In this document: positions 4,658 through 62,297 of the stretch, one piece after another
Numbering within the stretch: the stretch's first letter is position 1
Layout of the letters: every line of letters starts with the position of its first letter
From: Nesterenkonia sandarakina
Lineage (GTDB): Bacteria > Actinomycetota > Actinomycetes > Actinomycetales > Micrococcaceae
Length of the DNA: 64,000 bases
Direction: 5' to 3'
Assembly (NCBI RefSeq): GCF_013410215.1
Contig: NZ_JACCFQ010000001.1
Coordinates: 2,294,001-2,358,000 of the forward strand
Made by a program: the position numbers and the translations under genes
Notes under the pieces: generated by a model
Databases searched by the model: none
Told to the model about the DNA's origin: nothing
Seen by the model: only the letters and a program-made list of their open reading frames with translations

Positions 4658-6676
4658 GTGGGTCAGGAGCCGGCATCCCAGGCAGGGCAGCCGTCGAACC
4701 AACCTGCCCTGCTGGACTCGCTGGCGCCCCAGCCGGCTCCGCAGCTGCCCGCCGGGGCCACGGAGGACCTGCCCGTGGCCGAAGTCCTGCTGGAATCCGC
4801 CGTTCCGCACCTCGACCGTCCCTTCGACTACGTGGTGCCCATCGATCTGGCGGAGAAGATCGTGCCCGGGTCCCGGGTCAAGCTGCGGTTCTCCGGACGG
4901 GAGATGACCGGTTACGTCCTGCGCCGGAAGCAGGAGCCCTCCACCGCCTCCCGGCTCTCGCTGATCACCAAGCTCGTCACCGCCCTGCCGGTGCTCTCCG
5001 AGGACATTCTCCAGCTCTCGCAGCAGGTCGCGGAACGTGGAGCCGGGGTCACCGCAGACGTGCTGCGCGCAGCCATCCCGCCACGGGCAGCGCGGGTGGA
5101 GAAGGACTTCGCCGGCCTGCGCGTCCCCGAGGTCCAGCTTGACCCGGGAAACCCGCGACCCCGCAGCGCCGCACTGGCGCTGAAGTCCTACGGCGAGCAG
5201 TCCTGGACGGCGCAGGTCTTGGACCGGGTGCGGGAGTGTGTTGCGGGGGAGGGGGACGCCGTCGTCGTCGTTCCGGACCAGCGCGACGTCGAAGCCCTCA
5301 TGGAGGTGCTCACCGGCTCACTGGGCAGCGGGGTCGCGGTCCAGCTGACCGCAGAGATGGGCCCTTCGGCGCGCTACCGGTCCTTCCTGCAGCTGCGCTA
5401 TGGACAAGCCCGGGTGGCAGTGGGCACCCGGTCCGCCGTCTTCGCTCCGGTGGCTCGGCTCCGGCTGCTGATGGTCTTCGAAGACGCCGAGCAGACCCAC
5501 GCCGCGCCCCGGGCTCCCTACCACCATGTCCGCGAGGTGGCGCTGCTGCGCACCGTGCAGACCGGTGCGGAGCTGGTGTTCCTCTCCACCTCCCGGAGCC
5601 TGGAGGTGCAGCGACTCGTCGAACGCGGCTGGCTGACCGAGGTGGCACCCGAGCGTGAGGAGCGCCGCGGCGTCGCGCCCCGGATGATCGCCACGGCAGA
5701 CTCCTATGAGCAGGAGCGCGAACCGGCCTTCCGGCAGGCCCGACTCCCCGCTGCCGCGTATAAGGCCGCCAGGGACGGTCTGCAGCACGGGCCGGTGCTG
5801 GTGCAGGTCGCGCGCAGCGGGTTCATCCCAGCGGTGCTCTGTGAGCGGTGCCGCAGCCGCCAGCAGTGCCCGCAGTGCCATGGACCGTTGAGCCTGCCGG
5901 CCCACCACGGGCAGTCCCGGACGCTGAAATGCCGCTGGTGCGGGCTGCACCATCGGGATCACCGCTGCACCGAGTGCGGGTCCACCACCTTCCGTGCCGG
6001 CACTCGCGGGGCCGATCGCACCGCCCAGGAGCTGGGCCGCGCCTTCCCGAACACCCCGGTGATCTCCTCCACCTCTGATCACCCGATCGCCGAGGTCGGC
6101 CAGGAGCCGGCCCTGGTGGTCAGCACCCCGGGGGTGGAGCCGGTGGCGCAGACCGGCTATGCCACAGCCCTGCTGCTCGACGGAGACACCCAGCTCAGCC
6201 GCGAGGGTCTGGACGTGCCGCGCCGGGTGCTCTCCCGCTGGTTCCGCGCCGCCTCCCTGGTGCGCCCGCACAAGACTCACGGTGGCACCGTGGTGATCAC
6301 CGCCGAGGCGGAGGACCTCACTGCCGCACTGGTGCGCTGGGACCCCGTGGGCTATGCCCGCAGAGAGCTCTACAACCGTCTGGAGCTCGGGCTGCCCCCG
6401 GCGCAACGGATGCTCAGCCTCACCGGTGACCCCGCAGAGGCCGAGGCGTTCCTGGTCCAGGTGCAGCTGCCGGAGGGACGTTCCTGGATCGGCCCGGCCC
6501 CGCTGGAGGATGGTCGGCACCGGTATCTGTTGTTCTTCGGCTATGCCGAGGCCGCCAACGTGGTCACCGAGATCCGAAGGATCCGGCGCACACACAGCGC
6601 CGCACCCCCCGGCGCGGCGCGCGGCGGCCGGGGCCTGCGGATCGCGCTGGATGACATCGAGAGTCTCCAGTTCTGA
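4658..6676 (+). CDS. priA: Primosomal protein N' (PriA), actinobacterial type without a P-loop
   Basis: Replication-restart protein related to the PriA helicase. The N-terminal 3'-DNA-binding domain is clear (AEVLLESAVPHLDRPFDYVV, GSRVKLRFSGREMTGYV). The zinc-binding cluster lies mid-protein with paired cysteines in CERCRSRQQCPQC and CRWCG...CTECG. The region where Walker A should be reads CVAGEGDAVVVVPDQ and has no GxGKT/S motif, so ATP-driven unwinding is doubtful; from family knowledge this is usual in actinobacteria. GTG 4658 follows an AAAGGGG at 4642-4648. 672 residues is normal. The following gene is not fmt, which often comes next. Confidence 0.92.
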   Translation: MGQEPASQAGQPSNQPALLDSLAPQPAPQLPAGATEDLPVAEVLLESAVPHLDRPFDYVVPIDLAEKIVPGSRVKLRFSGREMTGYVLRRKQEPSTASRLSLITKLVTALPVLSEDILQLSQQVAERGAGVTADVLRAAIPPRAARVEKDFAGLRVPEVQLDPGNPRPRSAALALKSYGEQSWTAQVLDRVRECVAGEGDAVVVVPDQRDVEALMEVLTGSLGSGVAVQLTAEMGPSARYRSFLQLRYGQARVAVGTRSAVFAPVARLRLLMVFEDAEQTHAAPRAPYHHVREVALLRTVQTGAELVFLSTSRSLEVQRLVERGWLTEVAPEREERRGVAPRMIATADSYEQEREPAFRQARLPAAAYKAARDGLQHGPVLVQVARSGFIPAVLCERCRSRQQCPQCHGPLSLPAHHGQSRTLKCRWCGLHHRDHRCTECGSTTFRAGTRGADRTAQELGRAFPNTPVISSTSDHPIAEVGQEPALVVSTPGVEPVAQTGYATALLLDGDTQLSREGLDVPRRVLSRWFRAASLVRPHKTHGGTVVITAEAEDLTAALVRWDPVGYARRELYNRLELGLPPAQRMLSLTGDPAEAEAFLVQVQLPEGRSWIGPAPLEDGRHRYLLFFGYAEAANVVTEIRRIRRTHSAAPPGAARGGRGLRIALDDIESLQF

Positions 6677-46849: not shown

Positions 46850-47674
46850 TCACCCCCGGCTGAGCACCGGCCGCGGCGCAGCGCGGGGACGCGTCGCGGA
46901 GTACCAGCCGGCAAAGAGCAGCACCAGCACGGCGAGGTCAACGGCGTCCCCGCCGTAGTACATCAGCTGGGCGCCGGCCTGCCCGTCACCGGTTTCCACC
47001 CCCTGCGGCGGGTGCGCGTAGAGCCACTTGGCCAGGGCCGAATGCGCCGCGATGAAGAGGATCAGCACTGCTGATCGCATCGGCATCGAGGCCCGGTGCG
47101 GGTCAGGGTCCACCCCGACCACTGAAGCGGTGAAGAGGTATCCCGCAGCGAAGATGTGCAGATGGACCACGGCGTAGGCCAGCGGGGAGACGTGCATGAC
47201 CTGGTAGAGGTCCGTGGTGTAGAGCAGCCAGAGCCCACCCGCGTTCAGTGCGCCGGCGGTGATCGGATGGCTGACCACCCGGACCCCAGGGCTGCGCAGA
47301 ACCCGGGTCAGCACCCGAGCGGCGTGGACCGGCAGAGCGCGCAGCGCCAACGTGACCGGTGCGCTGCGGACCAGCAGCACAGGTGCGACCATGCCCAGGA
47401 ACAGATGTCCGAGCATATGCGCGGTGAAGCTGCTGTGCGCCGCGGCTGGTATCGGCCCGAGCAGCCCGGCGGCGGCGCAGATCAGCCCGAGGTAGAAGAG
47501 GAGGCTGCGGTGCCGCGGCCAAGGGCTCCGAGAACGCGCGGCCCACAGCCCGGCCGCGTGAGCGAGCGCAGCGACCAGAAGAAGCAGGACCACGACGACG
47601 TCGAGCCCTGCCCAGATCAGCGGGTCCGCCGCCTGCGGTCCAAGACCCTCCAGGGGTTCTCCGTGATGATCCAT
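46850..47674 (-). CDS. ctaG: CtaG-type cytochrome c oxidase assembly protein
   Basis: 274-residue polytopic membrane protein of the caa3-type CtaG family (the DUF1404-like type, distinct from Cox11), required for assembly of the terminal oxidase. Family features are HSSFTAHMLGHLFLGMVAPVLLVRSAP, with conserved histidines, and HVSPLAYAVVHLHIFAAGYLF. About seven membrane segments are visible. It is followed on the same strand by nothing close; upstream, 31 bases away, is the DUF2243 gene, a frequent partner. Confidence 0.88.
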   Translation of the reverse strand: MDHHGEPLEGLGPQAADPLIWAGLDVVVVLLLLVAALAHAAGLWAARSRSPWPRHRSLLFYLGLICAAAGLLGPIPAAAHSSFTAHMLGHLFLGMVAPVLLVRSAPVTLALRALPVHAARVLTRVLRSPGVRVVSHPITAGALNAGGLWLLYTTDLYQVMHVSPLAYAVVHLHIFAAGYLFTASVVGVDPDPHRASMPMRSAVLILFIAAHSALAKWLYAHPPQGVETGDGQAGAQLMYYGGDAVDLAVLVLLFAGWYSATRPRAAPRPVLSRG

Positions 47675-47705: not shown

Positions 47706-48170
47706 TCACGCCGGGACCTGCGCTGGACGGGTGCGGCGCAGGATCAGCAGCCCGATCAGCAGCAGCGCCACGGCTGAGCCGATCCAGGCCAGGTCATAGA
47801 GGAACAGGTCCACCCCGTAGCGGATCTGGTGGATCCCCAGCACCTTATGACTGAGCACCCCGTCGAGGAGCTGGAAGAACCCGACCCCGGTGAGCACCGC
47901 CCCGGTCCAGCGCGTCCACGGGACTGCCGCGCGGCGTCGGATGTCAGCGAGCAGGAACAGACCCCAGATGGTGATGAACCAGCCGAAGGCGTGGAAGAAC
48001 CCGTCCGCGGTGAGCGCGACCTCGGTGGTCGAGAGGTCATAGAAGTGGTGCCACTGCAGCGCCAGGTGAAAGATGAACAGGTCGATCATCGACGCGGCGA
48101 TCCCGCAACCGAACAGCACCCCTGAGAGCACGATTCGCCGGGCCGACGGGGCATCAGAGGGAGTACGCAC
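47706..48170 (-). CDS. DUF2243 membrane protein
   Basis: 154-residue protein with four membrane segments and the DUF2243 signature: GVLFGCGIAASMIDLFIFHL, QWHHFYDL, FFQLLDGVLSHKVLGIHQIR. It forms an operon with ctaG, which starts 31 bases after its stop; DUF2243 and CtaG genes commonly co-occur. The role is unknown, though the conserved histidines suggest metal or haem handling. It is divergent from the heliorhodopsin gene with 79 bases between starts. Confidence 0.87.
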   Translation of the reverse strand: MRTPSDAPSARRIVLSGVLFGCGIAASMIDLFIFHLALQWHHFYDLSTTEVALTADGFFHAFGWFITIWGLFLLADIRRRAAVPWTRWTGAVLTGVGFFQLLDGVLSHKVLGIHQIRYGVDLFLYDLAWIGSAVALLLIGLLILRRTRPAQVPA

Positions 48171-48249
48171 AGGACACAGCGTAGCCCTGCAGGTCGGTGA
48201 GCCGAAGGACCCTGGTCAGCGGCGTAGGGCCGGGAGGACACTGGTGTAC

Positions 48250-49095
48250 ATGAGCGCCTATCCGTTAGAGCTGCACACCGCATCCGTTGACGTGCCGCGC
48301 CGCTCCGCTCGTCGGCTGCGCAGCTTCAATCTCATCATGGGGGTCTTGCATCTCGTCTCGGGATCGGCGATGGTCGCCCTCAGCAACGACTTCAGCCTGC
48401 AGGTCTCGACCTTTGCGCTGAACGGTCCACCCGGGACGCCGGTGTCCCAGGGCTCGGCGAATGTCGTCTTCGACGTCCCGCTGGGATACGCCACGGCCTC
48501 CTTCCTGCTGCTCTCCGCCCTCTTCCACTTCCTGATCGCCTCACCGTGGGGTTTCCGGCGCTACATCGGCGAGCTCTCGAAGGGGCGCAACCGGTTCCGC
48601 TGGGTGGAGTACAGCCTGTCCTCCACCCTGATGATCCTGCTGATCAGCCTGCTGCTGGGCATCTCCGACATTGCCGCGCTGATCGGGCTGGGTCTGGCCA
48701 ACGTGGCCATGATCCTTTTCGGCTGGCTGATGGAGATGAGCAACAACGGACTGATGCATGGCGCCTCCGGAGGGTCGATCCGTGGCGGGAGCGCGTGGTG
48801 GACGCCGTTCTGGTTCGGCTGCATCGCGGGCATCGGCCCGTGGCTGGCCGCGGCGGTCTACCTGATCGTCAACGTCGGCATCGAAGGTGGGGAAGGACCG
48901 CCGGGATTCGTCTACGGCATCATCGTGTCACTGTTCCTGTTCTTCAACAGCTTCGCCGTCAACCAGTGGCTGCAGTACCGGCAGGTCGGCCGGTGGAGGA
49001 ACTACCTGACGGGGGAGCGCACCTACATCGTGCTCAGTCTGATCGCGAAGAGCCTGCTGGCCTGGCAGGTCTTCGCCAATGTTCTGGTGGGCTGA
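48250..49095 (+). CDS. Heliorhodopsin (retinal-binding light sensor)
   Basis: 281-residue seven-helix protein of the heliorhodopsin family, photoreceptors with an inverted membrane orientation and, in most members, no ion-pumping activity. Diagnostic segments are FRWVEYSLSSTLMI (with counter-ion Glu120), MILFGWLMEM, PFWFGCIAGIGPW, GFVYGIIVSLFLFFNSFAVN and ERTYIVLSLIAKSLLAWQVF, where Lys267 is the retinal Schiff-base lysine. From memory it aligns end to end with actinobacterial heliorhodopsin 48C12. ATG 48250 is used; GTG 48244 is better spaced from GGAGG at 48233-48237 and may be the real start. Retinal-making genes are not in the window, so retinal must come from elsewhere. Confidence 0.95.
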   Translation: MSAYPLELHTASVDVPRRSARRLRSFNLIMGVLHLVSGSAMVALSNDFSLQVSTFALNGPPGTPVSQGSANVVFDVPLGYATASFLLLSALFHFLIASPWGFRRYIGELSKGRNRFRWVEYSLSSTLMILLISLLLGISDIAALIGLGLANVAMILFGWLMEMSNNGLMHGASGGSIRGGSAWWTPFWFGCIAGIGPWLAAAVYLIVNVGIEGGEGPPGFVYGIIVSLFLFFNSFAVNQWLQYRQVGRWRNYLTGERTYIVLSLIAKSLLAWQVFANVLVG

Positions 49096-49174: not shown

Positions 49175-49459
49175 TCAGCGGTGGCTGTAGGTGAGGCAGT
49201 CTGCGTCGTCGAGTCCGGGCCCGACCCGCACCTCGGAGGCGTTGCACATCAGGTGATCGTTGTGGACGCACTCGCTGCGCTGGCAGGCTCCGACACCGGC
49301 AAGCACCTTGGGCAGTCCGCCGTGGACACCGATGTCGATGAATGTGGCGCAGGAGGCGTGGTCCTCTTGCCCGCCCACCGTGATGGCAGCCGCATTGCAG
49401 TGGGAATGATCATTGAACGAGCAGGCTTCGACGCTGCATTCCGAGACTTGGGTAGTCAT
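49175..49459 (-). CDS. Cys-rich DUF1540 protein, two repeats
   Basis: 94-residue protein with two copies of a Cys-rich motif: ECSVEACSFNDHSHCNAAAI near the start and ACQRSECVHNDHLMCNASEV near the end, each followed by a C (SCATF and DCLTY). This is the DUF1540 pattern, a probable small metal-binding domain. ATG 49459 has AGGAGG 10 bases upstream. The gene converges with the heliorhodopsin gene, 79 bases away. The function is unknown. Confidence 0.85.
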   Translation of the reverse strand: MTTQVSECSVEACSFNDHSHCNAAAITVGGQEDHASCATFIDIGVHGGLPKVLAGVGACQRSECVHNDHLMCNASEVRVGPGLDDADCLTYSHR

Positions 49460-49559
49460 GACCAACAACCTCCTGGGTTCAGCCGCCCGATCGGGCCGCT
49501 CCATGCCTCCACGGTAAGCCCGATCCGTGCAATCAAAAAGGGCCAGACATATGACCTAT

Positions 49560-60956: not shown

Positions 60957-62297
60957 ATGGATCGACAGCAGGAATTCGTACTGCGCACCATCGAGGAGCG
61001 CGACGTCCGCTTCGTGCGCCTGTGGTTCACCGATGTGGTGGGCTCATTGAAGTCTGTCGCCCTGGCTCCGGCTGAGGTCGAAGGGGTCTTCAACGAGGGC
61101 CTGGGCTTCGACGGATCCTCGATCGAAGGACTCTCCCGGGTCTTCGAATCAGACATGCTCCTGAAGCCGGACCCGTCCTCCTTCCAGATCCTGCCCTGGC
61201 GCGGGGAGGAGGAACCCACCTCCCGGATGTTCTGCGACATCCTGACCCCGGACCAGGAACCGGCTGCCGGGGACCCGCGCAACGTGCTGCGCCGGCAGCT
61301 CGATGTGGCCGGGGAGATGGGCTTCACCTGCTACACCCACCCGGAGATCGAGTTCTATGTGCTCGAATCTCAGGACCTCGACGCCGACGGCGCCCCGATC
61401 CCGGTGGACCGGGCCGGATACTTCGATCACGTCACCGGAAGCGTCAGCCAGGACTTCCGCCGCCACACGGTGAACATGCTCGAAGCGGTGGGGATCTCCG
61501 TAGAGTTCAGCCACCATGAGGCCGGGCCGGGCCAGAACGAGATCGACCTGCGCTATGCCGACGCGCTGACCACTGCGGACAACATCATGACCTTCCGCAC
61601 CGTGATCAAAGAGGTCGCGATCATGCAGGGCAAGTACGCCAGCTTCATGCCCAAGCCGTTCTCCGAGCACCCCGGCTCAGGCATGCACACCCACTTCGGG
61701 CTCTTCGAGGGGGACACCAACGCCTTCTTCGCGCCGAACACCGAATACAACCTCTCCACCACCGCCCGGCAGTTCATCGCCGGAGTGCTGCGCCACGCCC
61801 CCGAGTTCACCGCGGTGACCAACCAGTTCGTCAACTCCTATAAGCGGCTCTGGGGCGGGGGAGAGGCTCCCTCGCATGTCTCCTGGGGCCACAACAACCG
61901 CTCCGCGCTGGTCCGGGTGCCGCTGTACAAGCCGACCAAGGGCGGCTCTGCACGGGTGGAGTTCCGCGGCATCGACTCCGGGGCGAACCCCTACCTGGCC
62001 TACGCCGCGGTGCTCGGGGCTGGCCTGAAGGGCATCCGCGAGGGCTACGAGCTGATGGAGCCGGTCGGCGAGGACGTCTGGTCGCTGACCACCTCCGAGC
62101 GCAAGGCCCTGGGCATCAAACCGCTGCCGGGGACCCTGCACGAGGCGCTGCGCCAGATGGAGGACTCCGAGCTGATGGCCGAGATCCTCGGCGAGCAGGT
62201 CCTGGAGAACTTCCTGCGCAATAAGCAGCAGGAATGGGACGAGTACCGGGTCAACGTCTCGCCCTTCGAGATCAAACGGTACCTCGGCCTGATCTGA
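60957..62297 (+). CDS. glnA2: Glutamine synthetase, GlnA2 type
   Basis: 446-residue type I synthetase. The N-terminal RFVRLWFTDVVGSLKSVAL, FDGSSIEGLSRVFESDM and the metal site HPEIEFYVLE are seen, with the ATP/ammonia region MPKPFSEHPGSGMHTHFGLF and RVEFRGIDSGANPYL. The adenylylation loop has no tyrosine at the NLYxLP position: the text there is KPLPGTLHEALRQME. So this enzyme is not expected to be a GlnE target, as in other actinobacterial GlnA2. An excellent AGGAGG lies at 60942-60947. glnE starts 2 bases after the stop. Confidence 0.94.
   Translation: MDRQQEFVLRTIEERDVRFVRLWFTDVVGSLKSVALAPAEVEGVFNEGLGFDGSSIEGLSRVFESDMLLKPDPSSFQILPWRGEEEPTSRMFCDILTPDQEPAAGDPRNVLRRQLDVAGEMGFTCYTHPEIEFYVLESQDLDADGAPIPVDRAGYFDHVTGSVSQDFRRHTVNMLEAVGISVEFSHHEAGPGQNEIDLRYADALTTADNIMTFRTVIKEVAIMQGKYASFMPKPFSEHPGSGMHTHFGLFEGDTNAFFAPNTEYNLSTTARQFIAGVLRHAPEFTAVTNQFVNSYKRLWGGGEAPSHVSWGHNNRSALVRVPLYKPTKGGSARVEFRGIDSGANPYLAYAAVLGAGLKGIREGYELMEPVGEDVWSLTTSERKALGIKPLPGTLHEALRQMEDSELMAEILGEQVLENFLRNKQQEWDEYRVNVSPFEIKRYLGLI

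Follow-up and report, generated by a model that had tools for sequence, protein, structure and literature searches.

The window analyzed here is a 64,000-nucleotide stretch of the Nesterenkonia sandarakina genome (contig NZ_JACCFQ010000001.1). On its plus strand, positions 48250 to 49095 hold a heliorhodopsin (HeR) gene that runs from an ATG at 48250 to a TGA at 49093-49095 without an internal stop and encodes 281 amino acids. It is the only HeR copy in the host genome (3.02 Mb, 99.9% complete). The product matched the Pfam Heliorhodopsin profile (PF18761) over positions 1-242 of 242 (E=1.5e-94), scored 299.9 bits against the NCBIfam model "heliorhodopsin HeR" (NF038020; cut-off, 100), and matched the sequence of the solved 48C12 heliorhodopsin structure at E=1.6e-73. 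The host protein shares its fold with 48C12 of a freshwater actinobacterium (PDB 6su3 and 6uh3), with 54.5% identity over 246 residues. The 48C12 residues H23, S76, H80, R104, W105, E107, Y108, D127, N138, E149, S237, K241, and W246 are all retained. In the alignment, Glu120 (codon at 48607-48609, plus strand) corresponds to the Schiff-base counter-ion E107 and Lys267 (codon at 49048-49050, plus strand) to the retinal Schiff-base lysine K241; both were invariant in 37 HeRs. The motifs by which heliorhodopsins are defined, SxxxK in helix 7 and E-S-L in helix 3 (PMC9601134), were present in the translation as S263-xxx-K267 and as E120, S124, and L131.

The AlphaFold model of the protein (mean pLDDT, 85.8) contained seven helices and an A-B beta hairpin with strands at residues 49-56 and 69-77, and its best structural match was 48C12 (6su3_A; TM 0.91, target-normalized). 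The dN/dS values against six relatives were 0.06-0.11, a mark of strong purifying selection, which means that the protein is in use. These results indicate that the gene encodes an intact heliorhodopsin (type 3 rhodopsin), a further member of the known family. The preliminary description had reported a complete HeR gene with seven helices, Glu120, and Lys267 and had expected the protein to bind retinal; the former was borne out, and the latter is probable given the intact key residues. By homology to 48C12, an inverted topology with a cytoplasmic N terminus is expected.

Genes and putative promoters around HeR

The neighboring genes lie on the minus strand in the order GyrI-like, DUF1540, the HeR gene (on the opposite strand), DUF2243, CtaG-like, and DUF302. 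The upstream neighbor encodes a DUF2243 membrane protein (47706-48170, minus strand; PF10002, E=7.4e-41), and its GTG is separated from the HeR ATG by exactly 79 bases (48171-48249) in divergent orientation. Downstream, a gene for a Cys-rich DUF1540 protein (49175-49504, minus strand; PF07561) converges on HeR. These coordinates agree with the arrangement first described for the locus. HeR has no same-strand partner in an operon here, its upstream neighbor being divergent and its downstream neighbor convergent. The DUF2243 gene, which also occurs in HeR-less congeners, and the CtaG-like membrane protein gene beyond it (46850-47674, minus strand; PF09678) were judged to lie outside the HeR unit.

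The CtaG-like protein had been tied to respiratory oxidase assembly. Its membership of the Pfam family Caa3_CtaG was clear (E=1.1e-59), but it failed the NCBIfam test for caa3 CtaG (TIGR02737), scoring 28.9 bits against a cut-off of 279.35; because of this shortfall, a role in oxidase assembly is not established. The glutamine synthetase gene about 12 kb away, also mentioned in the preliminary description, is real (60957-62297; 11.9 kb from HeR). A link between the two genes by position was rejected, with many genes lying in between.

Within the 79-base gap, putative -10 hexamers of leaderless promoters were found for both genes. For HeR, GACACT (48237-48242, plus strand) lies 7 nt before the ATG, and similar hexamers were found in relatives: in 15 of 19 loci of the HeR clade to which the window gene belongs, set in unrelated gene contexts, the HeR ATG follows 6-7 nt after the end of an nAnA(C/A)T hexamer. 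In shuffled upstream sequences, this hexamer occurred in a mean of 0.23 loci (maximum, 3), for a pattern that was defined after seeing the sequences and for loci that are related. With such spacing, the transcription start would fall at the ATG, which suggests that HeR has its own leaderless promoter. For DUF2243, TACGCT (48178-48183, minus strand) lies 7 nt before the GTG, and congeners with HeR, as well as most of those without it, have TAGGCT or TACGCT close before the GTG. Since HeR and DUF2243 each have a -10-like hexamer, the gap probably holds two separate leaderless promoters. A sigma-70 consensus scan of the region gave no promoter; leaderless promoters, when assessed by their -10 element alone, fall outside the reach of such a scan.

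Occurrence of HeR within and beyond the genus

HeR was present in 6 of 30 genomes of the genus, and the remaining 24 were without any HeR. DUF2243 was found in 11 of the 30 genomes and adjoins HeR in three, where ORF calls in the high-GC relatives were heuristic and some neighbor assignments may be incomplete. The gene order of the window with HeR was seen only in N. sandarakina, Nesterenkonia aurantiaca, and Nesterenkonia sp. E16_10, which are sister species. The HeRs of the latter two are 93% identical to the host HeR and occupy the orthologous locus, with DUF2243-CtaG and DUF1540 beside them. In three HeR-less genomes (G009, G023, and G026), DUF1540 lies directly upstream of DUF2243 at a distance of about 65 bp, with CtaG beyond. 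The flanks match the surroundings of the window locus: all three genomes have CtaG, a methyltransferase gene, and an aminopeptidase gene there, and two of them (G009 and G023) also have the aldo-keto reductase gene. The DUF1540-DUF2243 junction in these species is thus the empty site for HeR.

The rpoB gene of the host was 98.6% identical to those of the HeR-less G009 and G019, 98.3% to that of G024, which lacks HeR at this position, and 98.2-98.4% to those of the HeR-bearing sisters. The host is thus no more distant from species that lack HeR here than from those that carry it, which places the gain or loss of HeR in the recent past. In a GTDB-style rpoB tree, the host grouped with G004 (taken to be N. 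aurantiaca) and G022 (taken to be E16_10), with moderate support (73/88). In two congeners, taken to be N. salmonea (G018) and N. pannonica (G015), HeR was present and DUF2243 absent, and G024 carries DUF2243 and, on another contig, a divergent HeR. These results indicate that the HeR-DUF2243-CtaG neighborhood is conserved through recent common descent only.

Three further observations were made in these genomes. The slot upstream of DUF2243 varies among close Nesterenkonia species, being occupied by DUF1540, HeR, an alpha/beta hydrolase gene (G019), or a GyrI-like gene (G024) (loci L100-L106). The DUF1540-DUF2243 gap of G009 (L101, 5900-5965) is bounded by an inverted repeat (TGATGCG...CGCATCA) that lies immediately upstream of the -10 hexamer of DUF2243 and is a possible operator. 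The rpoB gene of N. pannonica (L108/L142) is split among many frames in an assembly that is 62% complete, and many frame errors are likely in this genome.

Outside the genus, 15 contigs (from Tessaracoccus, other Propionibacteriaceae, Dietzia, Arthrobacter, Humibacillus, Terrabacter, Phycicoccus, and Ornithinimicrobium) carry HeRs with 69-85% identity to the host HeR, set among unrelated neighbors. Apart from one contig with a distant match to the aldo-keto reductase, they contained none of the window's neighbors. The conservation among relatives of the neighborhood with HeR in it, raised in the preliminary description, thus held for N. aurantiaca and E16_10 and failed in the other genomes of the genus and in all 15 contigs. 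Gene families shared between HeR loci were confined to small sets of related genera. In Propionibacteriaceae, the genes next to HeR included those for an amino-acid kinase and a GntR regulator; elsewhere they included genes for CorA, a P-type ATPase, a transporter of the MFS type, a disulfide oxidoreductase, enolase-like and luciferase-like enzymes, and HipA-like and phospholipase-D-like proteins. The occurrence of HeR in the family Micrococcaceae was patchy (14 of 295 genomes, in 6 of 32 genera), and the family HeRs fell into two sequence classes with 81-100% and 44-55% identity to the host HeR.

In the HeR tree, Dietzia, which belongs to another order, grouped with Arthrobacter (99/88). The dS between the host HeR and those of Dietzia and Arthrobacter was 0.90-0.93, compared with 1.12-1.17 to N. 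salmonea and N. pannonica, a difference to which base composition may contribute. The patchy occurrence and the grouping of Dietzia with Arthrobacter make HeR look like a self-contained mobile gene, and horizontal transfer fits the data best. A search for a mobile vehicle of this HeR clade found no element, repeat, plasmid, phage, or viral-contig copy, and the plasmid-borne HeRs that were found are distant ones in Chloroflexota and Lactococcus petauri. The L. petauri copy (L163, NZ_CP141705.1), at 4998-5774 of a 10.5-kb mobilizable plasmid and near an IS6 transposase, demonstrates that plasmid transport of HeR genes does occur.

Alternatively, HeR may have been ancestral to the genus and then lost and moved many times, with no gain by transfer. 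The five clade-A Nesterenkonia HeRs do form one group (100/98) of two subgroups, which speaks for such a history. However, it has to accommodate the 24 HeR-less genomes, the different contexts of the two subgroups, the tight DUF1540-DUF2243 junction in HeR-less sister species, and the placement of Dietzia with Arthrobacter among related HeRs, and we regard it as rather unlikely. An ancestral HeR would equally leave the neighborhood uninformative, and on either history the position of HeR says little about its function.

Retinal supply

The preliminary description had noted no retinal-making gene nearby, which holds, and no known one was found in the whole genome. Searches of the host genome for PF15461 (Blh), TIGR03753, and PF03055 (carotenoid oxygenases, RPE65-type) gave no match; as a control, the PF15461 search detected Tessaracoccus antarcticus at E=2.8e-69. 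The proposed genome-wide search for carotenoid genes did yield a crt cluster. The host's sole phytoene synthase sits in an idi-crtB-crtI-crtYe/Yf-crtEb-like cluster, the only carotenoid cluster found, and this layout is that of C50 carotenoid synthesis, as in Corynebacterium and Micrococcus. Because the cluster is C50-type, beta-carotene is not expected in the host. A known retinal route, in which Blh/BCD or a carotenoid oxygenase is combined with beta-carotene synthesis, was therefore not found in this genome. Blh (PF15461) was also absent from 28 of the 29 other HeR-bearing genomes (those behind loci L002-L079), Tessaracoccus antarcticus being the sole positive. RPE65-type oxygenases were detected in 11 of the 29, some with up to eight matches, and may be the retinal makers in those hosts. 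A search of the host genome for type-1 rhodopsins gave no match, and neither did its positive control.

These absences, together with a carotenoid cluster that is not expected to give beta-carotene, would be consistent with a cell that is unable to make retinal and a HeR that works without it, as the apoprotein or with another chromophore. We consider this improbable, since the pocket and Schiff-base residues have been retained under strong purifying selection and retinal may be obtainable by other means. Aurantimicrobium minutum has retinal and a working rhodopsin without known retinal genes (PMC7734400), and HeR-bearing aquatic actinobacteria have been inferred to take up retinal from their neighbors (PMC12422013). 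We therefore retain the reading in which the host HeR binds retinal, which would be taken up from other organisms or synthesized by some unrecognized route.

Candidate partner and mode of action

Thirteen HeRs absorb at 530-556 nm (PMC7807009). Heliorhodopsins have been shown to regulate partner proteins by contact, namely glutamine synthetase, photolyase, and the OmrDE transporter (PMC9529153, PMC11109279, and PMC9769723), and two-component, redox, nitrogen, and transport genes have been tied to HeRs in gene-context surveys (PMC8612252 and PMC11109279). The HeRs of Ornithinimicrobium cerasi (OcHeR) and Actinobacteria bacterium IMCC26103 belong to the same family as the host HeR, and a like mode of action is proposed here. 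The partner gene (OmrDE and glutamine synthetase, respectively) is adjacent in the same operon in those two organisms, whereas the host HeR has no such partner.

The preliminary description had raised a link between light sensing and respiration or redox state, by which HeR would tune oxidase assembly via DUF2243-CtaG from a shared regulatory region. The 79-bp spacing of the divergent starts, kept in three species, the membrane location of both products, and the regulation of partners encoded next door by other HeRs (PMC11109279) lend this idea some appeal, but we consider it very improbable, given that the three species are close sisters, that HeR-less relatives keep DUF2243-CtaG with DUF1540 directly upstream in three of them, that HeR occurs without DUF2243 in G018 and G015 and DUF2243 with a different HeR on another contig in G024, that DUF2243 retains its own -10 hexamer in species with HeR and in most of those without it, and that DUF2243 is mentioned together with HeR nowhere in the heliorhodopsin literature examined. 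Likewise, neither DUF2243 nor CtaG was met as a HeR neighbor in the parts available of the gene-context surveys (PMC8612252 and PMC11109279). A neighbor product may still interact with HeR despite the lack of conserved adjacency.

A different candidate for partner contact lies in the protein itself. The D-E loop (residues 163-183; 48736-48798, plus strand) carries an 11-residue insertion, NNGLMH...RG, which is lacking in 48C12. The insertion defines a clade of 20 members from several actinobacterial families, consisting of the window HeR and those of loci L002-L020. In all 20, the segment from E162 to W184 is 23 residues long, and NNGLM and RG are invariant. The corresponding segment measures 10-17 residues, mostly 12, in 62 other actinobacterial HeRs, all of which lack the insertion. 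HeRs of Arthrobacter, Dietzia, Tessaracoccus, Terrabacter, Humibacillus, Phycicoccus, and Ornithinimicrobium in this clade share the insertion with the host HeR, whereas their gene neighbors differ. In OcHeR, the spacing between Glu118 and Lys252 is 134 residues (PMC11109279) compared with 147 in the host HeR, which suggests that OcHeR is without the insertion. In the AlphaFold model, the insertion falls in the loop that joins helices D and E, which is modeled with low confidence (pLDDT about 51). Given the N terminus inside, a topology taken from the heliorhodopsin literature, the loop would be cytoplasmic. We found no description of the insertion in the heliorhodopsin literature consulted, and one may exist elsewhere.

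Binding of OcHeR to OmrDE requires the first and second intracellular loops (PMC11109279), and it is plausible that the D-E insertion is a partner-binding element. Because the cytoplasmic insertion is conserved and fixed in length while the gene has no conserved neighbor, a partner common to all hosts is suggested. A more specific version, which we offer tentatively and consider unlikely as it stands, is that in this spreading subfamily without an adjacent partner gene the insertion docks on a core actinobacterial protein, so that the mobile gene brings light control via scavenged retinal to each new recipient.

Taken together, we consider it probable that the gene encodes a typical bacterial HeR, a mobile single-gene unit with its own promoter, that exerts light-driven control over a non-neighbor partner by contact. 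Such a gene would move among actinobacteria as a single-gene unit and would have arrived between DUF1540 and DUF2243-CtaG in the common ancestor of the three Nesterenkonia-type species. There, its own leaderless promoter would probably keep it outside any operon with its neighbors. The apoprotein would bind all-trans retinal at Lys267, and green light near 550 nm would then cause isomerization and a slow photocycle that shifts the cytoplasmic loops. This movement would change the activity of the partner through direct contact, for which the D-E insertion is the candidate surface; the CtaG or DUF2243 neighbor is improbable as the partner, and a protein common to all these hosts is more likely. 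By analogy with the studied members of the family, the host HeR most likely senses green light and modulates a partner through contact.

The functions of heliorhodopsins are still mostly guessed from gene neighbors, and the window locus shows that a neighbor can mislead: the empty-site comparison confines the HeR-DUF2243-CtaG adjacency to one small lineage. The comparison also exposes a HeR subfamily that has no conserved gene neighbor and whose hosts are, as a rule, without Blh. Two questions, the origin of the retinal and what the D-E insertion binds, become testable, and culturable hosts such as Nesterenkonia, Arthrobacter, and Terrabacter make both accessible.
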